DNA of 64,000 nucleotides from Pacificibacter marinus. Its GTDB lineage: Bacteria; Pseudomonadota; Alphaproteobacteria; Rhodobacterales; Rhodobacteraceae. The stretch is from assembly GCF_900109555.1 (NCBI RefSeq), contig NZ_FNZV01000015.1:7064-71063 (forward strand), in the 5' to 3' direction. Shown here one piece after another: positions 3,840 to 16,887 of this stretch; within the stretch, counting starts at the first letter, position 1, and each line of letters starts with the position of its first letter. The position numbers and the translations under genes were made by a program. Below the pieces are notes generated by a model. It ran no database searches and was not told where the DNA came from. It saw nothing but the letters and a program-made list of their open reading frames with translations.

Positions 3840-4184
3840 ACGGCCTTCGCCCAAATTATCAGAATTTGTTACTCCTGATATCGAAAACGGAGCGCGGATT
3901 TGATTGATGGTTGCTGTCCGACGCGACACCAGACGTGACCGCACGCGATGCAATGCCTGCAAATCGAACTGGCCCTGTGTCTTCTCCTAAACCGTTTCCA
4001 AATTCGAACGCAGTGCCGCCTCGGCAATTGCCTCAGCATCGTTGCAATCGTTCTTTTGGCCCTTATTGAACGGCTTTACGTAGATCGTAGGAATAATGCG
4101 GGGGTCAAAACCAACCAAATGGAAAGTATCTTTGCCGATATGAATGCCAACAGGCATTAGTTCACTAAACTCTGTCATAGCCAT
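3840..4184 (-). pseudogene. IS110-family transposase remnant
   Basis: The minus strand encodes an IS110-type N-terminus: GIHIGKDTFHLVGFD (start of the DEDD RuvC-like domain), then VKPFNKGQKNDCNDAEAIAE. About 60 residues that normally separate these blocks are missing. The frame is broken by an in-frame TAG at 3987-3989 and then continues with a recognisable segment (DLQALHRVRSRLVSRRTA then INQIRA). The C-terminal transposase domain is absent. This is a decayed fragment with deletion and nonsense mutation, with no activity expected. Confidence 0.85.
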
Positions 4185-4344
4185 GCGACTTCACCTATAT
4201 GCAGATGAAACTAAGCTCAGTCTAACCTGCTGGGTGAATCTGCCGGTACATCCCATTAGTTGCCGTCCGCGCCACAGTATGCAATGACAGCTCCCAACCC
4301 GTTGTGCTCCGACACAAAAAGCGGTAAAAGCCACAAAATGCTCA

Positions 4345-5561: not shown

Positions 5562-6536
5562 CTATTCGGTAGCGCATCTAAGGGCGAGCGCTTTAGAAAT
5601 CATCAGAGCTTCTTTGAACGCGCGCTTTCGTGCTTTAGAAACTGGTAAATTGTCTCCATTCTGCAATACCACACTATGCTGCGCGCCATTTTGAACTATG
5701 TCTTTGACCGCAGAAAACGCAACCCAATGGGATCGATGAACCTGAAACCCAAGACCCGCAGGCAAATGCGCGATCACGTGCGAAAACCGCTCTCGCGTGT
5801 GTTCTTGCCGCTTCAATGTTTGGATGCACACGTAGTGCTCATCCGCAGAGACAGCGCATATATCCGTGATATTTAACGAAAGCTTACCAAATTGTACAAC
5901 ACGCCCCTCAAGAAGCGGTGGAATGGGTGCCGTCAGGTCCGTGCTCTCATGAGCTTGCATTTTAGGCGGTAGCGTCGTGGAGCGCGCTGCCGTGGTGTTC
6001 CCCCGGTCCAATCGTTGCATCATAAGCGGAAATCCCATTGAAACATAAAGTGTCGAGAACACCTGTTCGACAAGAAAGCAAAAGAAAATCTCGTTAAATT
6101 GAATTGCAGTTGTGTCTCGCCCTAAATCACCAATGAATATTTTTTCAATCGGCGTCCCTAGGGCAATCAAAACGCTCAAGATGGCAAAGCTCACAAAAGG
6201 CAAGATGACCGTTCTAATACGTGTATTTTTCAACGTAAGGTAGAGCACGGTAAGGACACTCACCATAAGCCCAACATACATTATAGCCACCAACATCCAG
6301 GTCGCAGCGACCGCCCAATAGCTAGAAAGACCAACGGCATCGGTCGGGTCAAGTATGGTCATCAACACCACGAAAGAACTGATGAATAGCCAGATATCGG
6401 GTTGCTTGAAAAAGACTGGCAAGAGCTTCAAGTTAAACAAAAGCTTCGTGCCAACTATGGACACGCATTCGATATATGCGTCACGTTCGTGGGTTTGGGC
6501 TGGGCGCAAAAACCTATCGGCTATTCGTTGTTCCAT
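5562..6536 (-). CDS. membrane-anchored LytTR transcriptional regulator
   Basis: This 324-aa protein has four predicted transmembrane helices in its N-terminal half (roughly residues 48-64, 76-98, 107-127 and 148-168), a linker, and a C-terminal LytTR DNA-binding domain (about residues 215-315, with ITDICAVSADEHYVCI and VHRSHWVAF). It has no receiver or kinase domain, so it is a one-component membrane regulator rather than a response regulator. It starts at ATG 6536. A tandem site matching the LytTR consensus lies 410 bp upstream, in front of the divergent carbonic anhydrase gene, which is the likely target. Confidence 0.85.
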   Translation of the reverse strand: MEQRIADRFLRPAQTHERDAYIECVSIVGTKLLFNLKLLPVFFKQPDIWLFISSFVVLMTILDPTDAVGLSSYWAVAATWMLVAIMYVGLMVSVLTVLYLTLKNTRIRTVILPFVSFAILSVLIALGTPIEKIFIGDLGRDTTAIQFNEIFFCFLVEQVFSTLYVSMGFPLMMQRLDRGNTTAARSTTLPPKMQAHESTDLTAPIPPLLEGRVVQFGKLSLNITDICAVSADEHYVCIQTLKRQEHTRERFSHVIAHLPAGLGFQVHRSHWVAFSAVKDIVQNGAQHSVVLQNGDNLPVSKARKRAFKEALMISKALALRCATE

Positions 6537-6584
6537 TTCAAGAACCTTAACATGTCTGATTAGGTTTTAAGCATGCTAGAGCAA

Positions 6585-6635
6585 TACGTTAGATAAAGAT
6601 ATAATAACGCTTGGAATTTACGCATTTACGTTTCC
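6585..6635 (+). promoter_or_regulatory. weak LytTR-like boxes at 21-bp spacing near the regulator's own start
   Basis: TACGTTAGA (6585-6593), AACGCTTGG (6606-6614) and TACGTTTCC (6627-6635) resemble the LytTR half-site WMMGTTNRK and sit exactly 21 bp apart in the same orientation. Each has one or two mismatches. The set lies 49-99 bp upstream of the LytTR gene start and could serve autoregulation. It may be chance in AT-rich DNA. Confidence 0.3.
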
Positions 6636-6950
6636 TAAATGACAGGAATACTGTGCCCAAACTTAGAGTGTTTCGTTCAAGTTTGCCTTGCGTGCTTTCG
6701 CACCCAAAATTTAATAGCATCTCATTGTGACACGATACAAGTCACTGTAATCAAAGCACGACGTGAGCATCCATAATATATTTGTCTCGCCTTATTTTGC
6801 ATTTTTTTGGTCAACTCAGTCGTCACGAAATGACCTTTTGGGTGGTTCGTGACATTTCACGCCTTGTCGTGACTACAACATTCCAGTGCCCAATTTGCTG
6901 TGTTTTTTAACTGATACTAACTCTGCGCAGTTTGGCAATTGTGCCTTTAA

Positions 6951-6981
6951 TCAGTTCGGCTTGCACCTTTAATCAGTTCGA
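6951..6981 (+). promoter_or_regulatory. tandem LytTR binding site
   Basis: The 15-bp sequence CCTTTAATCAGTTCG is present twice in direct orientation (6944-6958 and 6966-6980). Within it, TCAGTTCGG (6951-6959) matches the published LytTR consensus [TA][AC][CA]GTTN[AG][TG] at every position, and TCAGTTCGA (6973-6981) at all but the last. Start-to-start spacing is 22 bp with a 13-bp gap, the geometry expected for LytTR dimers. The site lies 166 bp upstream of the carbonic anhydrase gene and reads toward it. Confidence 0.75.
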
Positions 6982-7146
6982 CAATGCCAAGTGTCCAATA
7001 TTCAGAGGGCACCAGATTCTAAAATATGATGGAAACTGACGTAAGTCGCAAAAGAGTAGGCTGAGAAAATTATTTAATCTTGTCTTCGTGACAAGCTGTT
7101 CACAGGTGCTCAGTTTGAGCGGTACTAAAATGACTAAGGGACCAAA

Positions 7147-8010
7147 ATGAAAAAGAAACTCTTGCTTACAGGTAGCGTAGCGTCTGTCGTACTTGCGGGC
7201 TTTTCTGCATATGCAAGCTCCGCTGATCACGCGCAGGTTTCTGACAAAGTGATCTCTGAGCAACGTCACGTATTGGCAGAAAGCACCGATGGGGTTGGTT
7301 TCGGACCACAATCTCCACGCGACATAGACACCCTGCACGGTACAAACCATCGCGCATTTGAAACAGCACCCGCATATCACGAGATGAACTTGTGTAACAT
7401 CCATTTTCACGAAAATGCCGAGCACAAAGGCGGTGAATTCACGACATACGCTGGGAACGGCGATGGTCATGGATACGGCACTGGTTTCAAATATGATGGC
7501 GACTTAACCGAAGCTGAACTGGCCGCCTACGACCACCACGTTGGCGAAACCGATCATGGCGATCTTGTTCCCGGAGATACCATCGAAGTGCACTATGTTC
7601 ACACCACTGCAAAAATTGAACCTGGCGCCACTCTAGGGGCTTGTCTCAGCAAAGCGATCAACAACCCACAGCTTCGTGTGGAAACTCAAGTGTACGTTTT
7701 GGTAAACGATGATGCTGCTCACGATTTTACGGATCTCACGCATCATGAAGTCGTTGATGGCCTACATCAGGCGACCAACATCCCAACAGACACTGGCACA
7801 CCTGTTCAATATGCGGGCTCTACAACTGGTCCAGGTTACAACGTAACAGGATCCCCGTTTCAAGTCACTTGGAGCGTGCGTCCGCAGGTTACCAAAGTTT
7901 CGATTAGCTCGGTTGATACGTGGTTACAGGGCAATACATTCGACGAAGATCATGCGCATGGCGTTCGCAACCTTGTCGTGAATCCTGAACTCTTGTCGGA
8001 AGCCCATTAA
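7147..8010 (+). CDS. secreted delta-class carbonic anhydrase
   Basis: This 287-aa protein has a signal peptide (MKKKLLLTGSVASVVLAGF, cleavage near AYASS) and is presumably periplasmic. The body matches the delta-class carbonic anhydrase family: LCNIHFHENAEHKGGEF, then VHYVHTT, EPGATLGACLSKA and NPQLRVETQVYVLVND. The histidines in HFHENAEH and the HYVH segment are the likely zinc ligands. The reaction is reversible hydration of CO2 to bicarbonate. The family was first described in marine diatoms and also occurs in marine bacteria. Upstream is a tandem LytTR site and a divergent LytTR gene; downstream is a hairpin. Confidence 0.85.
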   Translation: MKKKLLLTGSVASVVLAGFSAYASSADHAQVSDKVISEQRHVLAESTDGVGFGPQSPRDIDTLHGTNHRAFETAPAYHEMNLCNIHFHENAEHKGGEFTTYAGNGDGHGYGTGFKYDGDLTEAELAAYDHHVGETDHGDLVPGDTIEVHYVHTTAKIEPGATLGACLSKAINNPQLRVETQVYVLVNDDAAHDFTDLTHHEVVDGLHQATNIPTDTGTPVQYAGSTTGPGYNVTGSPFQVTWSVRPQVTKVSISSVDTWLQGNTFDEDHAHGVRNLVVNPELLSEAH

Positions 8011-8073: not shown

Positions 8074-8571
8074 TCAGCAATATGCACCGTTAGAGTATGT
8101 AAGTTCATAACTGTGACTGTAGAGTTCAAAGACGATGCCAAAGGGGTCTTCTACGTAGACCATGCGGTATGGTTTCTCGTCAGGAAAATATTCGCGCACG
8201 GGCATACGTTGTTTACCGCCAGCGGCCACGATCTTTGCCAATAGGTCTTCAAGGTTCGGATCCTGAATAGCAAAATGAAACGTGCCGTGTTGCCTGAAGT
8301 TAAGGTTATCTTGTGGTGCCTCGTGTCCTTCGAATTCGAACAGCTCAAATCCAATACGGTCAGCCGTCGCCAGATGCGCGATGCGCAAGCGCCCCCAACC
8401 TTTGCCAAAAACGTCCGAGCACATTTGGCCAATGTCGCTGTCGTCTTCGACAATTTCAGTTGGCTCCATGACAACGTAGAACCCTAGGACATCGCCGTAG
8501 AATTTAATCGCCTTGTCCAAATCGGGCACGGACAAGCCAATATGAGAAAATGAGCGTGGTGTCGGTTTCAT
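8074..8571 (-). CDS. VOC-family (glyoxalase/dioxygenase-like) protein
   Basis: This 165-aa protein has paired beta-alpha-beta-beta-beta modules of the vicinal oxygen chelate fold: FSHIGLSVPDLDKAIKFYGD, GTFHFAIQD, and the C-terminal VEDPFGIVFELYSH. The His of SHIG, the His of FHF and the Glu of FELY are the usual metal ligands. Members act as lactoylglutathione lyases, ring-cleaving dioxygenases or drug-binding proteins, and the substrate here cannot be told. ATG 8571 is preferred over an ATG 45 bp upstream because AAGGAAAC precedes it. It is divergent from a LysR gene that probably controls it. Confidence 0.8.
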   Translation of the reverse strand: MKPTPRSFSHIGLSVPDLDKAIKFYGDVLGFYVVMEPTEIVEDDSDIGQMCSDVFGKGWGRLRIAHLATADRIGFELFEFEGHEAPQDNLNFRQHGTFHFAIQDPNLEDLLAKIVAAGGKQRMPVREYFPDEKPYRMVYVEDPFGIVFELYSHSYELTYSNGAYC

Positions 8572-8628
8572 AGTGTTTCCTTTCAAGAGTGTTGCGGGAA
8601 ATATAGATGGACTCAATTCGTATTAAAA

Positions 8629-8655
8629 ATTATCATTTTATATGATTTTCATAAT
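8629..8655. promoter_or_regulatory. putative LysR operator between divergent genes
   Basis: The intergenic region between the VOC gene and the LysR gene is AT-rich and holds ATTATCAT (8629-8636) followed by the palindrome ATGA-TTT-TCAT (8642-8652). Such T-N11-A-type dyads between a LysR gene and its divergent target are typical operators. No experiment is implied, and AT-rich DNA makes dyads common. Confidence 0.4.
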
Positions 8656-8669
8656 TTATTGAGATAATC

Positions 8670-9560
8670 ATGTTGAACGCCACGTGGCTGAACACCTTTA
8701 CGACGCTGTGCGACGTCGGACACTTTACGCGGACAGCAGAGCTGTTGGGGATGACCCAGCCTGGTGTATCGCAGCACGTGCACAAACTGGCGTCCCAAGT
8801 CGGTAAGCCCCTAATATCAAAGGATGGAAAATCCTTCACACTCACCCCTGCAGGCGAAACGGTGCTGGCCATCGGCCTTGCGCGGCGTCAGCAAGAGCGC
8901 GAGCTGCAAGACGCTATCCAAGCCGATGATCCAAACGTTGGCAACATCAGCATTGGGTGTTCCGGCAGCTTCGCCATGTGGCTCTACCCACACCTTCTTG
9001 ATCGGATGCATCACGCGCCCGATCTTGTCCTCAATGTTACGGCCGCTCCGCATACGAGTATTGTAAGTTCCGTTTTGAGTGGAGAGTTTGATCTGGGGAT
9101 CGTCGCTGAACCAATCAACCATCCCAGATTGGACGCAATTGAATTGACCCGTGAAGAGTTGTGTTTGGTTGTTCCGCGATCCCTCAAGGGACAAAAGCTT
9201 GATCTCCATCTCTTGAACAAACTTGGCTTTGTCGCGCACCCAGACGGGTATGGATATGCGGATGATCTTTTTTCACTAAACTTCCCAAAGGATTACAAAG
9301 GCGCTGATAGCTTAAGGGTAAGGACTTTCGTCAACCAAATAGGGCAAATACCCATTCCAGTAGCGCAGGGGCTTGGATACACAATATTACCCAAATCCGG
9401 CGTAGATGCGTTTGCTGGAAAACAGGACTTGGCGATTATTCAACTGCCGACACAACGATACCATGATCTGTGGGTGATTTCGCGAAAGGGCCGAAGCGAA
9501 ATAGCGCGCATCGCCGCTTTGAGCGACTTCATTATCCAAACAGCAAAGGCTTTGAGGTAA
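8670..9560 (+). CDS. LysR-family transcriptional regulator
   Basis: This 296-aa protein has an N-terminal winged helix-turn-helix (residues 3-62: FTTLCDVGHFTRTAELLGMT, QPGVSQHVHKLASQVGKPL) and a periplasmic-binding-protein-like effector domain (about residues 88-290). Length and domain order are normal. It is transcribed away from the VOC-family gene with a 98-bp shared promoter region, the standard layout for a LysR regulator and its target. The effector is unknown. Confidence 0.88.
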   Translation: MLNATWLNTFTTLCDVGHFTRTAELLGMTQPGVSQHVHKLASQVGKPLISKDGKSFTLTPAGETVLAIGLARRQQERELQDAIQADDPNVGNISIGCSGSFAMWLYPHLLDRMHHAPDLVLNVTAAPHTSIVSSVLSGEFDLGIVAEPINHPRLDAIELTREELCLVVPRSLKGQKLDLHLLNKLGFVAHPDGYGYADDLFSLNFPKDYKGADSLRVRTFVNQIGQIPIPVAQGLGYTILPKSGVDAFAGKQDLAIIQLPTQRYHDLWVISRKGRSEIARIAALSDFIIQTAKALR

Positions 9561-9610
9561 CGTTTATCAGGGGCAATAAAAATAATAGGTATAGGCTGGA
9601 ACAGGTAGAT

Positions 9611-9899: not shown

Positions 9900-11141
9900 T
9901 TATTTCTTGAGCTTCGCCTGCTCCAACGACCAGTATTCCATATCAAATAAATCCGGTTCCGAAATTGGAGCAAAGCGTTTAAAATCTTCTGCTCCGTTGA
10001 CGATCCGCGCCGTCTGTTCCAAAAGATCGCCTGCAATTTTTGCAGAGCTTGCATTGGCCCCAATCCCAAAAAGCCCGACGCCAAGTACAAAAACGCTGCG
10101 CGGTAGCGGATCAAGCATAACCTTTTCGTCCGATGCCTGTGCCGCATTACGTTCAAAATATGCGGTGTAGCGCTGAGCAAAATCCGCGAGCGCCGCTTTG
10201 ATTTCAACAGCACCGTCGGTAGCTGACAAAAGCATGCTAAATGGTTTGATGCGAATAACATGATCGGGAGTGGCTGTGCCGCGCTGGGACAGTTCGGCGA
10301 TATTGTCGCGCGCAAGATACCGACGGATAGAGGGGCTTGTGCGAAAATCAAGTGCAGGTGTTTCGCCCAAAGACCCTTGCTCAGTCAGAGCCGCACGCAA
10401 GGCGTCAGTCAAAGCGGCGGGTGCGTCCGCGTCGTTTGCTTCTGGACCAGGGATCACAATGTTGCGGCCTGCCAAATACTCTTCAGCCATTGTAACAAAT
10501 TCGATCATCAATTCGTAGCTGGCCTTTGCTGTTTCAGCAAATGTAAACAACCCGTGTTGTTCCAGCCAAAGCCCATCGACGTTTGGATCGCGATTAAGGG
10601 CATCATTGCACGCGTGACTTAGGCTGTAACCAGGCATGACATATGGCACAAAACCAATTCTGTCGCCGTAAATTTCTTTGACCACATCTTGCATATCGGT
10701 CTGATCTGCCAGCGCCAAGGTTGCTGTCGCGTGGGTATGGTCGACAAAAGCGTGTGGCATATAAGCGTGAAGCAAAGCTTCGATTGATGGGTTCGGTGCG
10801 TTTGGATCAAGAAGGTTCTTACGCAAAAATGCCACCATATCTTCGTCCGACATATGCGGGATCGCACGGGTCGTCAAAAGTGGTTCTAGCCACATGGCAG
10901 GCAAGCCTGGGGCTTCAATATCGCCAAGATCCCACCCAGATCCTTTAACATGAATGATGGCCCCCCCTTCGGATTCTGGAATTTTCACAGACGTGTTGCC
11001 GCCACCGTGCAGCACCAAATCCGGTTCCTGACCGATCAGTCGCGACGTATAAATCCGCAACCCTAGCGCCTCTGGTTGCCCAGCCGCGACGGCTCTATCG
11101 ATAAATTTTTGGGCGTCTATGTCATTCCAAGCGGACAGCAT
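9900..11141 (-). CDS. class II aldolase/adducin-family protein (RhaD-like, aldolase half only)
   Basis: This 413-aa protein matches the aldolase domain of COG3347 proteins: VLHGGGNTSVK, then HAYMPHAFVDHTHA with the metal-binding histidines, and WLEQHGLFTF. Many relatives are about 680-aa fusions carrying a C-terminal short-chain dehydrogenase. Here the protein stops cleanly after the linker-like EYWSLEQAKLKK and no dehydrogenase follows. ATG 11141 follows AAGGAGCTACC. It is the last gene of the leftward lsr operon, 62 bp after lsrB, behind a hairpin. It may cleave a sugar-phosphate-like product of AI-2 processing, replacing LsrF; that role is inferred. Confidence 0.8.
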   Translation of the reverse strand: MLSAWNDIDAQKFIDRAVAAGQPEALGLRIYTSRLIGQEPDLVLHGGGNTSVKIPESEGGAIIHVKGSGWDLGDIEAPGLPAMWLEPLLTTRAIPHMSDEDMVAFLRKNLLDPNAPNPSIEALLHAYMPHAFVDHTHATATLALADQTDMQDVVKEIYGDRIGFVPYVMPGYSLSHACNDALNRDPNVDGLWLEQHGLFTFAETAKASYELMIEFVTMAEEYLAGRNIVIPGPEANDADAPAALTDALRAALTEQGSLGETPALDFRTSPSIRRYLARDNIAELSQRGTATPDHVIRIKPFSMLLSATDGAVEIKAALADFAQRYTAYFERNAAQASDEKVMLDPLPRSVFVLGVGLFGIGANASSAKIAGDLLEQTARIVNGAEDFKRFAPISEPDLFDMEYWSLEQAKLKK

Positions 11142-11163
11142 GGTAGCTCCTTACATTGATGGC

Positions 11164-11182
11164 GGGGGCGACATGCGCCCCC
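11164..11182 (-). terminator. GC-rich intercistronic hairpin between lsrB and the aldolase gene
   Basis: GGGGGCG (11164-11170) pairs with CGCCCCC (11176-11182) over a 5-nt loop. No T-run follows in either direction. Such a hairpin just after a solute-binding-protein gene usually raises stability of the upstream mRNA and lowers expression of distal genes rather than ending transcription. Confidence 0.5.
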
Positions 11183-11203
11183 ACTTGAAATTTATGATCG
11201 TGA

Positions 11204-12220
11204 TTAAAAGTCGTAGTTGTCGATGTTTTCAGCAGTAAACACCGCACGCTCTGGCAAAAGAATGATGCCATTGCCGTCTGCTTCGTAGTCGTAGCCTTGT
11301 ACCGAGTTTGGCGAAAGTTCGACTTCACCGATGCCTGGAACGTCAACTTTATCGCCAACATTCAATGGACCGTTTTCAAGCACATGCGCTGCAACCGCGA
11401 CAGAAATCGCACCTTGCTGCGTCACGTCCCATAGACCGAAACGCTCAATTGTGCCGCGTTTAACATAAGGGCGCATCACGTTTGGTGTCGAGAACCCAAC
11501 GATGGTCACATCCCCTGCCCGATCAAGGTTTTCCGCAGCTTGTGCGGCAGCGGGAAGCGCGTTCGCATCAGGTGCGATGATCGCATCAAGATCAGGATAG
11601 GCTGACAGGATGCTTTCCGCTGTTTGCAACGATTTTTGTGCATCGTTGTAACCGTATTGTGTGGTTACAATTTCCCAACCTGGATGCTCTGCTGCGATTT
11701 TTGCCTTCGCCGCATCTGCCCAAGCGTTTTGATCTGTCACAGTTGGCGATGAGTAGAAAAACGCGACTTTTGCTTTTTCTTTCTCTTTAAGGCCATCATT
11801 CGCCATATCAACAAGCAAGCCACCAAGCTGATCAGGTGTGCCTTGATTGATATAGTAAGAACGACATTCTGGGTTCACATCTGAATCCCATGTCATAACC
11901 AAAACATCACGTGCCATAGCTTGACGAAGCGCAGGGCACAGACCGTCAGGGGAAACGGATGATACGATAACCGCGCCGTAGCCCTGATTGACGAAGTTGT
12001 TCACAAATTGCACTTGCGCAGAAACGCTCGGTTCGGTTGGCCCATCATAGGTGACGTTGATGCCAAGCTCTTCGCCCATTGCCATCGCGCCGTTCCCGCC
12101 TGATGTGAAGAATCCCACACCAACAAGTTTAGGGATAAAAGCGATGTCCTCCGCAACGGCCACGTTGGCCATCATCACTCCAGCTACGACTGTTCCCATT
12201 AGTTTCAATGATTTACGCAT
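11204..12220 (-). CDS. lsrB: AI-2 periplasmic binding protein LsrB
   Basis: This 338-aa protein has a signal peptide (cleavage after NVAVA) and near-identity in long blocks to enterobacterial Lsr[64 protein letters not shown] and [13 protein letters not shown]. The residues that contact AI-2 in Salmonella LsrB (Lys in IPK, Asp in TWDSD, Asp-Gln in TDQN, Pro and Ala in PDANA) are all present. It should bind R-THMF, the boron-free form of autoinducer-2, and deliver it to the LsrCD/LsrA transporter. It follows lsrD after 33 bp. Confidence 0.95.
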
Positions 12221-12253
12221 AGTAGTTCCTCCTCCATTTTAGTTTTGCAGACG

Positions 12254-13237
12254 TCAGTTTGACTGGCGCAGGCGACCCGGAAAAAAATCACGCAAAAGCG
12301 CCACGCCGTGGCGCAGCGCCACAACGAGAACCAGCAGCGCTCCGGACAACGCACTGGAAATTTGGCTAGGGACGCCACTCATTTGCAGTCCCTGTTGTAG
12401 GTATCCGATGATGAATGTGGCGATGATCGTGCCCAGCACAGATCCCTTGCCACCGTAAATTGATGCACCGCCTAAGACCGCTGCCGTGATCGCGGGCAAA
12501 AGCGTCGCGCTTCCAAGATCAACCCGTGCCGATCCGAAATAAGCCGAAAGCAAAAGCCCTGCGAGCGCAGCCGCGCAGCCTGTCATCACATAAGTTATAA
12601 GCTGGACCCGAAAGACCGGCATTCCCGAATGACGCGCCGCGTTTTCGTTTTGGCCAATTTGAAACACCAACCGCCCAAAACGGGTCGCGTGCAACAAAAC
12701 CAAAAGCACAGCTGAAAAGCACAGAAAGACGAAAAGCGGCATCGGCAGCCCGAATATGCTCGCATAGCCGAGCGCCGTAAAACCAGCCGGAAATCCGCCG
12801 ATGCCCTCATATCCGTTTGCCCCAACGACACCCGACAGCACAGTAGCTGCACCAGAGAACATATAAAGAGAGCCAAGCGTAACGACCAAAGGCTGCAAGC
12901 GCGTCAATTGGATGATCGTGGCATTTAAAACGCCGGCCAATGCGCCAGTCGCACAGCCTATCAAAATGGATACAGCCAGAGGCATGCCAAAAAAGTTGGC
13001 AATACCAAAAGTGATAGCGCACAATCCGACGGTTGAAGCAAAACTAACGTCGATGCCCCCAGCGATAATCACAAATGTCAGCGGTACGGCGACAATGCCG
13101 ACTTGCACGAAATCCGATGTCCCGTACAACAGCGAACTGGGGTACAAAAAGCGCGGATTTATCAGACCAAAGACAACAAGCTCGATTGCCAAAAGACCAA
13201 GGAGCAAGACCTCCCATCTCATGAGGTACTTTTTCAT
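12254..13237 (-). CDS. lsrD: AI-2 ABC transporter permease LsrD
   Basis: This 327-aa polytopic inner-membrane protein of the sugar/AI-2 permease family has about nine hydrophobic segments and the conserved GGIDVSFAS and AAVLGGASIYGGKGSV signatures of the BPD_transp_2 domain. It would pair with LsrC to form the channel that imports AI-2 delivered by LsrB. Its start overlaps the end of lsrC by four bases (13234-13237), showing translational coupling. Its place as second permease, before lsrB, matches lsr operons elsewhere. Confidence 0.92.
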   Translation of the reverse strand: MKKYLMRWEVLLLGLLAIELVVFGLINPRFLYPSSLLYGTSDFVQVGIVAVPLTFVIIAGGIDVSFASTVGLCAITFGIANFFGMPLAVSILIGCATGALAGVLNATIIQLTRLQPLVVTLGSLYMFSGAATVLSGVVGANGYEGIGGFPAGFTALGYASIFGLPMPLFVFLCFSAVLLVLLHATRFGRLVFQIGQNENAARHSGMPVFRVQLITYVMTGCAAALAGLLLSAYFGSARVDLGSATLLPAITAAVLGGASIYGGKGSVLGTIIATFIIGYLQQGLQMSGVPSQISSALSGALLVLVVALRHGVALLRDFFPGRLRQSN

Positions 13238-14244
13238 GCTGCGTCCTCCGCATTTTTAAGATCAGGTCCGCCTTGTTCGCCGCGACGATAGCGCGCTGCG
13301 CGGTCGCGTGCTTCCAAAGCGATGCGCAAACGCCCATCAATCAAGAGCACGGTAAGAAGCATCGCACCGCCGATAAGATCGTTCCAATAGGCTGGGATTT
13401 TGAGAAACACGAGCGACGTGTCGATAGAGGTGAAAAAGATCACCCCAATGACAACGCCCGCAACGGATCCAACCCCGCCCAACAGGCTAACCCCGCCAAG
13501 AACAAGGGCTGCAATAGCCCGAAGTTCGATGCCAGTACCTGCCTGATTTGGAACAAACCCGATTTGAGACGCAAAGGTAATACCCGCAACCGATGCGGCA
13601 GCGCCCGCCCAAACAAATGCAAGAAATTCGATCCGCTTGACGGGTAAACCAAGGTGACGTGCCGCCTCGCGATTGTCGCCAACCACCATAAACCAGCGAC
13701 CACGGCGTGACCGTAAAAAGACCCATAAAAGGATGATGATCGAAGCCGTCACAACCCCCATGACCGATAGCCCTGCAAAGGATCGTGCCCCCAAAGCTTT
13801 AAGGTTTTCTGGCAAGCCCTCGATCCATTCACCACCGGTTGCTATTAGCATAGCACCGCGAAACAGCCCAAGTGTTCCGAGCGTTGCAACGATTGAGGGT
13901 GCGCCCAAAACAGCGACTAAAAATCCGTTTAACGCACCCGCTGCAATGCCTGCCCCCATCGCCATTGCTATCGCAATCGGCATGGCAAATCCTGCGTTGA
14001 CGGAAAGCCCCAAGGTGACAGCAGACAGCCCTAAAACCGATCCACCGGAAACATCGATATTACGTGTCAGAATGACTGGGAAAATCCCAAGCGCGACCAA
14101 CATCAAAACAAGACCGTTCGACCAGACAATCGACGCAGTTCCTAAAGACAAAAACCCAGGAGAGGCCGCGCCGACAGCAAGGATCACGCCGACAGTAACC
14201 ATGAATAATGTCGCGACACGGTCGCGGGCGATCCATTCAAGCAT
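13234..14244 (-). CDS. lsrC: AI-2 ABC transporter permease LsrC
   Basis: This 336-aa inner-membrane permease has the signatures RNIDVSGGSVLGLSAV, GAPSIVATLGTLGLFRG and LGGVSLLGGVGSVAGV. The start is placed at ATG 14244 (MLEWIARDRV) because GAGGAGA precedes it and the N-terminus then begins just before the first membrane helix. A longer frame starting at 14370 would only add a translation of lsrA in another frame. The chosen start overlaps lsrA by 8 bases. It forms the AI-2 channel with LsrD. Confidence 0.92.
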   Translation of the reverse strand: MLEWIARDRVATLFMVTVGVILAVGAASPGFLSLGTASIVWSNGLVLMLVALGIFPVILTRNIDVSGGSVLGLSAVTLGLSVNAGFAMPIAIAMAMGAGIAAGALNGFLVAVLGAPSIVATLGTLGLFRGAMLIATGGEWIEGLPENLKALGARSFAGLSVMGVVTASIIILLWVFLRSRRGRWFMVVGDNREAARHLGLPVKRIEFLAFVWAGAAASVAGITFASQIGFVPNQAGTGIELRAIAALVLGGVSLLGGVGSVAGVVIGVIFFTSIDTSLVFLKIPAYWNDLIGGAMLLTVLLIDGRLRIALEARDRAARYRRGEQGGPDLKNAEDAA

Positions 14245-15718
14245 GCGCCGTCTCCTCGGCTTCAAAGGCCAGTTGCGCGATCTCGTCAGTCGATGCTCCG
14301 CTGGGAAGCTCACCTGCCAGATGCCCGCCAGCCATGACCACAATCCGGTCTGACAGACGCACAACTTCATCGAAATCGGATGAAATTAGGATCACTGAAG
14401 TGCCATTTTCGGCCAACTGTTCAATGATGCTGTAGATGTCATTTCGCGCGCCGACATCGACACCGCGCGTGGGTTCATCAAGGATCAAAACCTTGGGCTC
14501 GGCCGCGAGGCACTTTGACAAAAGAACCTTTTGCTGATTGCCACCTGACAAACTTCCAACGTGTTGATCGGGGCTTTCGCATTTAATCCCAAGCGCCGTG
14601 CGATACGTGTCAAATCGTTTGCGCTCATAACGCGTACGTAAAAAGAATGGCAACCGATCATAGACAAGCGATGACGTGTTCCAAAAGAGTGGTGCTTCAA
14701 GGAAAAGCCCATATTGCTGACGATCTTCTGAAAGATGAACAACGCCTTTTTTTATGGCCTCGAAAGGAGACTTGGCACGAAAAGAGACAGAATCAAGCGT
14801 AACATTTCCCGCCGCACGAGGGCGCAACCCCACTAAGGTTTCAGCAAGCTCTGTGCGCCCTGCCCCGACCACGCCAGTCAGCCCCAAGACTTCGCCTTGC
14901 TTTACGTCGAAAGAGATGTCGACAAATCCTTCGCCGCTCATATTTTGCAACGTCAGGACAGCAGCTTTATCGGCGTGACCTTGTTTGTCGCCAGCGCGTG
15001 CGCTGAGCGTGGTCACGCCAGGGCTCATTGCGCTGAGGATATCCGCATCGGCGCTATCCGCCATGTCCGCACTGTGCACGACATAGCCATCGCGCAGCAC
15101 AGTGATGCGATCAGAAACCGCACGTAATTCATGTAGTTTGTGAGAAATAAACACCAATCCGTGCCCAGAGTTGCGCAGACCACGCATCCGCGTAAAAAGT
15201 GTATCAACTTCTACTGGCGTCAGGGCCGAGGTTGGCTCATCAAGAATGAGCACCTTTGCATCACGCACAAGGCCCCGCAGAATTTCGACAATTTGGCGAT
15301 CTGCAATCTCTAAAGTCGCAGCCTTAACATCCACAGAAAGAGAGACGCCTAGCTGCGCGATCAAATCCGTAATCCGCGTGCGGTATTCCGCGGCGGATTT
15401 AGGCAGACCAACACAGACATTTTCCAAAACCGATTGATTTGGGAAAATATGCGCCTCTTGCGGAACCAGATAAAGCCCCATGGCTTGCGCCTGCGCTGGC
15501 GTAGCTGGCGAAAGTGGTTGCCCGCCAATCCGAACCTGCCCACCAGAGGCAGGCACAAGTCCTGCAAGAATCTTCATAAGGGTGGATTTCCCCGCCCCGT
15601 TTCCACCAAGAAGGGCATGAATCTCACCGGCACGGACGGAAAAGTCGACCCCTTTGATCACGGGAGTATTGGCATAGCTTTTTGAGACAGCATTTAGCTC
15701 TGCAAGTGAAAATTCCAT
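14237..15718 (-). CDS. lsrA: AI-2 ABC transporter ATP-binding protein LsrA
   Basis: This 493-aa protein carries two ABC ATPase domains, as LsrA and sugar-type importers do. Domain 1 has Walker A GGNGAGKST and Walker B LILDEPTSAL. Domain 2 has a degenerate Walker A (GVVGAGRTEL), the signature LSGGNQQKVLLSKCLA and Walker B LILDEPTRGVDVG. It powers AI-2 import through LsrC and LsrD. It is the first gene of the leftward operon and starts 230 bp from the divergent lsrR, so both operons share one control region. Confidence 0.94.
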   Translation of the reverse strand: MEFSLAELNAVSKSYANTPVIKGVDFSVRAGEIHALLGGNGAGKSTLMKILAGLVPASGGQVRIGGQPLSPATPAQAQAMGLYLVPQEAHIFPNQSVLENVCVGLPKSAAEYRTRITDLIAQLGVSLSVDVKAATLEIADRQIVEILRGLVRDAKVLILDEPTSALTPVEVDTLFTRMRGLRNSGHGLVFISHKLHELRAVSDRITVLRDGYVVHSADMADSADADILSAMSPGVTTLSARAGDKQGHADKAAVLTLQNMSGEGFVDISFDVKQGEVLGLTGVVGAGRTELAETLVGLRPRAAGNVTLDSVSFRAKSPFEAIKKGVVHLSEDRQQYGLFLEAPLFWNTSSLVYDRLPFFLRTRYERKRFDTYRTALGIKCESPDQHVGSLSGGNQQKVLLSKCLAAEPKVLILDEPTRGVDVGARNDIYSIIEQLAENGTSVILISSDFDEVVRLSDRIVVMAGGHLAGELPSGASTDEIAQLAFEAEETAHA

Positions 15719-15740
15719 AACTCCTCCCAGACGTCATTTG

Positions 15741-15897
15741 GAACATATCCGAACAAATTGCAGGACTAAGTGACTTAGCCAAGTATGTTCATATGAATTT
15801 ATATAAATCATTTGTTCACTGACTCAGCCGTCTGTCAACATGATTTTGTCAAAATATGTGCAAATTAATTCCTTAATATTGATATTGACTTGTTCAA
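15741..15897. promoter_or_regulatory. lsr divergent promoter with repeated TGTTC half-sites
   Basis: Between lsrA and lsrR the motif TGTTC or its complement recurs: GAACAT (15741), GAACAA (15751), ATGTTC (15785), TTTGTTC (15811) and TTGTTCAA (15890). A perfect palindrome CTAAG-TGA-CTTAG lies at 15766-15778 and TTCATATGAA at 15788-15797. Escherichia coli LsrR uses TGAACA-like half-sites, so these are likely operators for the LsrR encoded here. The lsrR ribosome site is GGGGAGGT just before 15949. Confidence 0.6.
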
Positions 15898-15948
15898 ATG
15901 TTTTTAAGATAGTTATTTTGCACTGCATGTAATGCTGGGGAGGTAAGC

Positions 15949-16887
15949 ATGACGGACCTGATAAATGGAGATGCCGACGAAGCCCTACTCGCACGCGTCG
16001 CTTGGCTCTACTACAACGATGGCCTCACCCAGAGTGAAGTTGGCAATATTCTCAATATTTCGCGGATCAAAGTCTCGCGCCTTCTTGACGAGGGGCGCAC
16101 CTCGGGCCTCATTCAGGTTAGAATTAATTCCCGCCAACAAGGCTGCCTTGAACTTGAAACCCGCATGAAGCAACAATTCGGATTGTCGGATTGTCGCGTG
16201 ATCCCAGAAAGCACTATTGAGGATACAAACCTACGCGTGGGGCACGCCGCCGCGCAGTACCTCATGCAAAAACTCAAGCCAGGTGACAGTCTATCTGTTG
16301 GCTGGGGCGAAACCGTTTCTCATTCAATCCGCATGCTCGGCTATACAGCCCAAGAACGTGGTATTGGCCTGTACGCTCTCACGGGCGGCGTCCAAACCTA
16401 TGTCGAAGGGATGCGCGAGGCGAATTGGCACAAAAACGTCAACATTATCCCTGCCCCGCTTGTTGTCTCAACACCCGAACTTGCCGCCGCATTGAAATGT
16501 GAGCCATCCATTTCAACACTTGTATCCAAAGCGCTAGAGGCAAATTACAAACTCGTTGGCATCGGCGGGTTAAGCGAAACAGCAACCGTCGTCGCGCATG
16601 GGTATGTATCCGCCAGCGAAATCGACCCACTGCGCCGCAGTGGCGCGCGCGGAGATATTTTGTGTCGCTTTTATGACCGCAACGGTGAGGATATCGACCT
16701 GCCCCTGCATGATTGCGTTGTGGGCGTGAATCTAGAACAACTTCGCAACTCCAAACAAGTTATCGCCGCAGCTGGCGGGCCGACAAAAGTTGGGCCGATC
16801 CTGTCTGCCGTTCGTGGCGAAATCATCGATATTCTCATAACCGACGAGCCGACCGCACTGGCACTCTTGGACGCCGCTGAAGGATAA
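15949..16887 (+). CDS. lsrR: LsrR, AI-2-responsive repressor (SorC/DeoR family)
   Basis: This 312-aa regulator has an N-terminal helix-turn-helix (residues 14-53: LLARVAWLYYNDGLTQSEVG, then LNISRIKVSRLLDEGRTSG) and a C-terminal sugar-phosphate isomerase-like effector domain (VGWGETVSHSIRML, LTGGVQTYV, IGGLSETATVVAHGY). LsrR represses lsr operons until it binds phospho-AI-2 made by LsrK. It starts at ATG 15949 behind GGGGAGGT, is divergent from lsrACDB, and is followed after 3 bp by lsrK. In enterobacteria lsrK-lsrR lie in the reverse order, so the layout here is rearranged. Confidence 0.93.
   Translation: MTDLINGDADEALLARVAWLYYNDGLTQSEVGNILNISRIKVSRLLDEGRTSGLIQVRINSRQQGCLELETRMKQQFGLSDCRVIPESTIEDTNLRVGHAAAQYLMQKLKPGDSLSVGWGETVSHSIRMLGYTAQERGIGLYALTGGVQTYVEGMREANWHKNVNIIPAPLVVSTPELAAALKCEPSISTLVSKALEANYKLVGIGGLSETATVVAHGYVSASEIDPLRRSGARGDILCRFYDRNGEDIDLPLHDCVVGVNLEQLRNSKQVIAAAGGPTKVGPILSAVRGEIIDILITDEPTALALLDAAEG

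Follow-up and report, generated by a model that had tools for sequence, protein, structure and literature searches.

A predicted membrane LytTR regulator and a secreted delta-class carbonic anhydrase encoded head to head in Pacificibacter marinus: a possible local switch

Membrane LytTR regulators are known in Alphaproteobacteria, and few of them have a known signal or target. According to the excerpted text of its source, HigX of Caulobacter crescentus combines four membrane helices, a linker and a C-terminal LytTR domain; the full-length protein regulates a promoter, whereas the part without the membrane helices does not, and that part is also below detection in Caulobacter (PMC13384398). 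CoxC of Afipia carboxidovorans, likewise a membrane LytTR protein, is described in a second excerpt as repressing a cox promoter via direct repeats; its soluble part alone suffices for repression, and CO is sensed through its MHYT domain (PMC11347149). The same excerpt gives canonical LytTR sites as 9-bp repeats spaced 10-13 bp, and the RcoM operator as TTCNNGCA repeated with 12-13 bp spacing (PMC11347149). The literature on delta-class carbonic anhydrases, as far as its excerpts extend, deals mostly with the diatom enzyme, and in the open-licence literature, judged by titles and abstract openings, we found no described circuit of a delta-class carbonic anhydrase and a LytTR regulator.

Here we consider a locus of Pacificibacter marinus that brings the two together. 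In the window, by which we mean the whole analysed stretch of 64,000 nucleotides, a LytTR gene and a delta-class carbonic anhydrase gene stand head to head, separated by 610 bp (Table 1). The C-terminus of the regulator matches the Pfam LytTR profile PF04397 with 59.2 bits against a cut-off of 22.6, and the enzyme matches PF10563, 'Delta carbonic anhydrase', over the entire profile (positions 1-181 of 181; E 3.5e-80, 268.8 bits, cut-off 26.3), which bears out the original prediction of a LytTR membrane protein divergent from a secreted delta-class enzyme. Across the 43 contigs of the genome, each of the two families is represented by a single match, namely by these two genes. Among genes with a Pfam match, the regulator gene is flanked by the carbonic anhydrase gene and, in the opposite direction, by ACT-domain and SMR genes.

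Table 1. Features of the regulator-carbonic anhydrase locus (window coordinates)
Feature	Position	Strand	Basis or remark
Membrane LytTR regulator	5562..6536	-	324 aa; sole LytTR found in genome
LytTR DNA-binding domain	5604..5879	-	residues 220-311; Pfam PF04397, E 4.8e-16
Predicted membrane segments, four or five	6030..6467	-	residues 24-169; hydropathy
Candidate LytTR operator: four [TGC]CGTGA[AC] elements	6820..6874		shuffles and enrichment at related LytTR genes
20-nt tandem repeat, 22-bp spacing, with TCAGTTCGG / TCAGTTCGA	6939..6980	+	repeat finding, genome scan, shuffles
Sigma-70-like promoter match, 9/12	7001..7030	+	chance level: 3 found vs 2.5 expected
AAGGGA, likely ribosome-binding site of the carbonic anhydrase gene	7136..7141	+	sequence inspection; five bases 5' of start codon
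Secreted delta-class carbonic anhydrase	7147..8010	+	287 aa; PF10563 domain residues 77-255

LytTR is the only Pfam match in the regulator at E up to 0.01. N-terminal to this domain, hydropathy marks hydrophobic segments at approximately residues 24-43, 46-70, 67-104, 105-138 and 150-169, and thus predicts four or five membrane helices. A four-helix membrane protein fused to a LytTR domain had been proposed; the fusion holds, in that membrane segments and LytTR sit in one protein, whereas the number four is not fixed by the hydropathy profile. A single-sequence structure model shows long helices in the membrane region, but its mean pLDDT is only 43, and the model was set aside.

Given this build, HigX is a close parallel. 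Both proteins are alphaproteobacterial and both consist of membrane helices (predicted in the window regulator), a linker and a C-terminal LytTR domain, although the window regulator may have a fifth helix where four are described for HigX. HigX adjoins a gene for a COG4188 hydrolase, whereas the window regulator adjoins the carbonic anhydrase gene and has no COG4188 neighbour; judged by neighbour genes, with an adjacent COG4188 gene as the mark of a HigX orthologue, it falls outside that group. The HigX motif, moreover, is described as an inverted repeat, unlike the CGTGA-type elements of the window (PMC13384398, excerpt). CoxC, as excerpted, offers a second likeness, being a membrane-bound one-component LytTR regulator of its own gene cluster with a direct-repeat operator, but it carries a seven-helix MHYT gas sensor, and Pfam finds no MHYT domain in the window regulator. 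LRS two-gene systems keep their membrane inhibitor in a separate gene, whereas here membrane segments and DNA-binding domain are combined. We file the regulator as a further case of the known membrane LytTR regulators exemplified by HigX and CoxC.

Its relatives are distant. The best near-full-length matches among 394 family genomes are 22-31% identical, and those within the genus 24-29%. Relatives on plasmids (four records) are 23-38% identical; viral contigs yielded none. In a tree of LytTR domains the closest to that of the regulator are L105 and L117 (support 0.906). Two congener relatives, L227 (genome G016) and L228 (genome G001), 25% and 24% identical to the regulator, are divergent from RTX/Hint proteins, and at L227 a small possible frame lies between the LytTR gene and the RTX/Hint gene. 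Nine neighbour proteins of related regulators were scanned, of which two were RTX/Hint proteins, one a pirin and one an S-adenosylmethionine synthetase, the other five having no family.

The intergenic region holds two conspicuous elements. One is the direct repeat at 22-bp spacing on which the original prediction had centred, and which it had read as a LytTR dimer site. The repeat itself is confirmed and proves longer than first described: the 9-mers TCAGTTCGG (6951-6959) and TCAGTTCGA (6973-6981) lie within a TCAGTTCG tandem, whose 20-nt copies at 6939-6958 and 6961-6980 are identical in 18 of 20 positions. Dinucleotide shuffling of the 610-bp region, repeated 1000 times, gave no 20-mer direct repeat better than 16/20 and hence none that equalled the tandem. 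Genome-wide, the tandem form has one occurrence at 0 mismatches and none at 1, while the single 9-mers, at up to one mismatch, are not unusual in the window (22 matches against 24.9 expected). Viewed as 9-bp repeats with a 13-bp spacer, the tandem fits the canonical LytTR architecture, and it ends 20 bp before the promoter-like match. One of the 9-mers agrees fully, and the other in 8 of 9 places, with the classical LytTR consensus. By eye, an imperfect inverted repeat, TTGGCAATTG ... CAATGCCAA, flanks the tandem at 6932-6990; the repeat finder lists no inverted pair there.

As a conserved operator of carbonic anhydrase genes the tandem was rejected. It was not seen in the 400 bp upstream of 112 other such genes (114 loci, two of which had too little DNA). 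Strong direct repeats do occur there: L160 has a perfect 15-mer at spacing 16, and L191 and L209 have 14/15 repeats, all three unlike the window tandem in sequence and in spacing. Natural DNA is thus less clean than shuffled DNA.

The other element is a cluster at 6822-6873, in which [TGC]CGTGA[AC] elements start at 6822 (minus), 6847 (plus), 6856 (minus) and 6867 (plus); a fifth element stands outside the cluster, at 7086. Four such elements within 70 bp were found in none of 5000 shuffles, and the plus-strand pair, 20 bp apart with a 12-bp spacer, has no other genomic copy at 0 or 1 mismatch. We compared upstream regions of LytTR genes from family and genus genomes with those of other genes within the same stretches; from the LytTR set we left out genes with less than 250 bp upstream, same-domain repeats and the LytTR gene of the window itself (L005), and from the 393 controls the 82 that overlap a LytTR upstream region. 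TTCGTGA, on either strand, occurs in 30 of 125 related LytTR upstreams and 19 of 311 controls (p 4e-7). Pairs of elements spaced 20, 21, 31 or 32 bp occur in 11 and 1, respectively (p 7e-6). Neither the classical LytTR consensus (23/125 versus 49/311, p 0.29) nor TCAGTTC (6/125 versus 17/311) was enriched at these genes. With the overlapping controls kept in, the contrast for TTCGTGA is weaker (31/126 versus 43/393). The motif had come to notice in an initial batch of genes, where TTCGTGA is present in 13 of 64 LytTR upstreams and 16 of 187 controls (p 0.013), and the genes fetched later served as a held-out set. There it was found in 17 of 61 against 3 of 124, with element pairs in 5 of 61 against 0 of 124 and no enrichment of the classical consensus (13/61 versus 17/124, p 0.13).

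Several features of the data bear on how this enrichment should be read. G+C is 0.586 in the LytTR upstreams and 0.638 in the controls; two reversed-motif controls showed no enrichment, with small counts. TTCGTGA is missing from 95 of the 125 related genes. The closest relatives by LytTR domain, L105 and L117, have no strict [TG]CGTGAA[AT] element, and L117 has three TCGTGA[AC] words. In the initial ranking of k-mers against shuffles, CGATCA and GTCGCTGA were among the words standing above the CGTGA words, and the pair pattern was widened to include the window's plus-strand elements, which end in C. At least two elements within 70 bp are present in 15 of 126 LytTR upstreams (own included), 20 of 393 controls and 2 of 112 other carbonic anhydrase upstreams, and a four-element cluster in 1 of the 126 LytTR upstreams, among which that of the window is counted, and in 1 of 393 controls. 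The cluster lies some 270-340 bp from either start codon, whereas in relatives the paired elements sit close to where the LytTR frame begins. A genome-wide regulon could not be derived from either pattern. At 2-3 mismatches the tandem pattern gave 74 matches and its reversed-pattern control 51, the CGTGA pair 48 and its control 82; since these numbers are similar to the control counts or below them, no regulon can be claimed.

Elements of the TTCGTGAA type are enriched upstream of family LytTR genes (L073-L131, L220-L225, L233-L292) and are sometimes paired at 20-21 or 31-32 bp. Judging from sequence, they are a possible operator for part of the LytTR group, and the CGTGA element is thus testable in this role at some other LytTR genes. 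A likeness to RcoM exists at this level: of the six bases specified in the excerpted TTCNNGCA, TTCGTGAA matches five, and a 12-bp spacer separates the plus pair of the window. RcoM differs from the window system in being a haem sensor and in having three repeats (PMC11347149). An element can be enriched upstream of a LytTR gene without being bound by the product of that gene. Nevertheless, given the enrichment at LytTR genes, the shuffles and the rarity at other carbonic anhydrase genes, the cluster at 6822-6873 is the better candidate operator. Of the proposed dimer site, the canonical spacing stands; its assignment to LytTR is doubtful, because related genes favour TTCGTGA over the classical consensus and the window itself holds a cluster of that type. 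The tandem may be a further LytTR operator, or it may be bound by a different regulator.

Is the pair conserved? The original prediction had named co-occurrence in other genomes as its own test. We collected 130 other delta-class carbonic anhydrase loci (38 from the family and class, the best 80, named, of 420 relatives in genome_contigs, and 12 more from the class), in 129 of which the gene was re-found, one giving no match; 127 are distinct. None of these 127 has a LytTR match near the enzyme (E up to 0.1; positive control 5.4e-29), upstream DNA amounting to at least 2 kb in 114 of them and less in the other 13, and a conserved pair was accordingly rejected. LytTR is present in 32 of 41 genomes that bear the enzyme (own included), and only the window's LytTR adjoins its carbonic anhydrase; the next-closest pair on one contig is some 35 kb apart (G110). 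Upstream neighbours were surveyed at 113 distinct loci; 8 lacked a gene call for the enzyme and a further 2 lacked an upstream neighbour, which left 103 neighbours. We scanned 74 of these (32 of 37 divergent, 42 of 66 co-directional), picked by eye for length and against near-duplicates. No common neighbour was seen among these 74: no family accounts for more than 3 of the 32 divergent or 2 of the 42 co-directional genes. Single regulators do appear, namely one LysR-type among the divergent neighbours, and one response regulator and one MmyB-like protein among the co-directional ones. The absence of LytTR at 127 loci, the lack of a common neighbour and a regulator without close relatives together indicate that the enzyme has no fixed neighbour in the sample and that the pairing is a peculiarity of this lineage. 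As a model of how bacteria in general control such enzymes, it carries limited weight.

How might such a locus work? We envision a lineage-specific arrangement, whereby a secreted delta-class carbonic anhydrase, an accessory marine gene, came to stand head to head with a membrane one-component LytTR regulator. Built much like HigX, the regulator would act from the membrane on the shared 610-bp region and would most likely control the carbonic anhydrase gene, perhaps also its own. The likelier operator would be the 6822-6873 cluster, made up of TTCGTGAC-type elements; the tandem (6939-6980), which a possible carbonic anhydrase promoter closely follows, might be a second LytTR operator or serve another regulator. 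Binding, control of the enzyme gene and the direction of that control are what we infer. We hold such a local switch, working rather through the cluster than through the tandem, to be tentative, at somewhat less than an even chance. The anatomy is real and orderly, and local control is plausible, as had been proposed, from the divergent genes, each the only family member found in the genome, and the non-random repeat, even though the pairing is not conserved in the sample.

What speaks for the local switch, besides the cluster and the enrichment of its element type, is the divergent arrangement of the only LytTR and the only delta-class carbonic anhydrase found in the genome. Action from the membrane would be possible for such a protein, as HigX shows by analogy (PMC13384398, excerpt). 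Against it, the LytTR gene faces the same region, and the elements may serve autoregulation only; nor is there a conserved pair at any of the 127 other loci. Indeed, the two genes could be chance neighbours, the enzyme gene having arrived by horizontal transfer beside a LytTR gene whose product controls only itself or distant genes. We consider this unlikely. It would account for the presence of the enzyme in one of 20 genus genomes and for the missing pairs elsewhere, it agrees with the lack of a common family among upstream neighbours of other such genes, and an integrase gene lies in the window at 583-1641; it is harder to reconcile with head-to-head genes and two intervening elements that exceed shuffling, neither of which has another genomic copy at 0-1 mismatch. 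Conceivably, too, the regulator is a dedicated one-component membrane sensor that responds to inorganic carbon, pH or membrane state and governs a periplasmic delta-class enzyme via either or both elements, a reading we regard as very improbable. Nothing in the analysis points to CO2, bicarbonate or pH, the signals originally suggested; because LytTR is the sole Pfam domain of the regulator, membrane state or a membrane-soluble ligand seems a more plausible signal than a soluble ion.

The role of the tandem divides the remaining explanations. That a regulator dimer binds TCAGTTCGG/TCAGTTCGA and switches a carbonic anhydrase promoter just downstream is favoured by a tandem beyond shuffles and unique in the genome, with 9-bp repeats and a 13-bp spacer as in the canonical LytTR architecture (PMC11347149, excerpt), ending 20 bp before a promoter-like match. 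This match is at chance level, however, and related LytTR genes show no enrichment of the classical consensus in either the main or the held-out set, so that we deem binding of the dimer to the tandem quite unlikely. Alternatively, the tandem could be the site of an unrelated regulator or a neutral 22-bp duplication, with the enzyme under global factors. The tandem was not seen in the other 112 upstream regions, and comparable direct repeats arise there by themselves (L160, and slightly weaker L191 and L209); two mismatches and a two-turn spacing, on the other hand, would resemble a kept operator more than a fresh duplication, and we rate this alternative as somewhat unlikely. The local switch is the reading we prefer, and among membrane LytTR regulators a compact pair with a single enzyme neighbour makes a tractable test case.

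The enzyme itself is widespread. Relatives are common in marine bacteria, with 420 confirmed in genome_contigs, the best 80 of which include Alpha- and Gammaproteobacteria and records named Mariprofundus, Campylobacteraceae and Nitrospirota. Carriers make up 39 of 394 family genomes and 16 of 385 class genomes (own included in each), whereas in the genus Pacificibacter only the window's own genome, among 20, has the gene, the other 19 sampled congeners being without it. It is found on eight plasmid records, in seven of which the match spans most of the protein; bacterial proteins named delta-class carbonic anhydrases in plasmid records belong to the same family, in which none of the 127 distinct other loci has a LytTR neighbour. 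One family member (L069, genome G378) is a broken gene with six stops within the matched stretch. The window protein is 62-75% identical to 34 aligned family members, has a hydrophobic, Sec-signal-like N-terminus by hydropathy, and has histidines 86, 88, 93, 149 and 271, invariant across the 35 aligned sequences (own included), as candidate zinc ligands.

By sequence the window enzyme has no PDB match. Its predicted model (mean pLDDT 68) retrieves, among the matches listed (50 of 304), alpha-class carbonic anhydrases exclusively, at E 2e-3 to 9e-3, none at or below 1e-3, with TM 0.20-0.30 and rmsd 8-18. Among viral structures two OPG105 proteins, which are alpha-carbonic anhydrase-like, top the list (E 2e-3 and 6e-3). 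A profile comparison of the delta and alpha classes, not significant at E 0.086 and a probability of 0.7%, pairs IEVHYVH with MELHFVH and GSTTGPGYN with GSLTTPPCTE, and the motifs HxH (read by eye), E-x-H-x-V-H and GS-x-T follow one another in the same order in both. L332, an alpha-class match interrupted by an in-frame stop, and the partial matches L335 and L336 were left out, so that A4 has two rows only. From these models, the resemblance of the delta to the alpha class might, faintly, be taken as a lead.

The surroundings of the locus are partly mobile in appearance. Positions 1-309, whole or in part, recur in about ten genomic copies that are 85-99% identical (e.g., on C38, C29 and C13, and directly before the window), and this repeated stretch lies near the integrase gene; the genes in the 7 kb preceding the window resemble, by eye, a mobile element. 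Dispersed repeats of about 50-220 bp occupy 3892-4270, with several copies in this genome and in congeners G005 and G007. We attempted to place an insertion boundary by means of congeners, three of which retain a glyoxalase/LysR pair (8074-9564). Because gene order beyond this pair differs in them, no empty site is readable. Further along, 9900-16887 holds a class II aldolase-like gene, a periplasmic sugar-binding protein, two permeases, an ATPase and a SorC-type regulator, which, from translations read by eye, looks like a sugar or AI-2-like uptake cluster.
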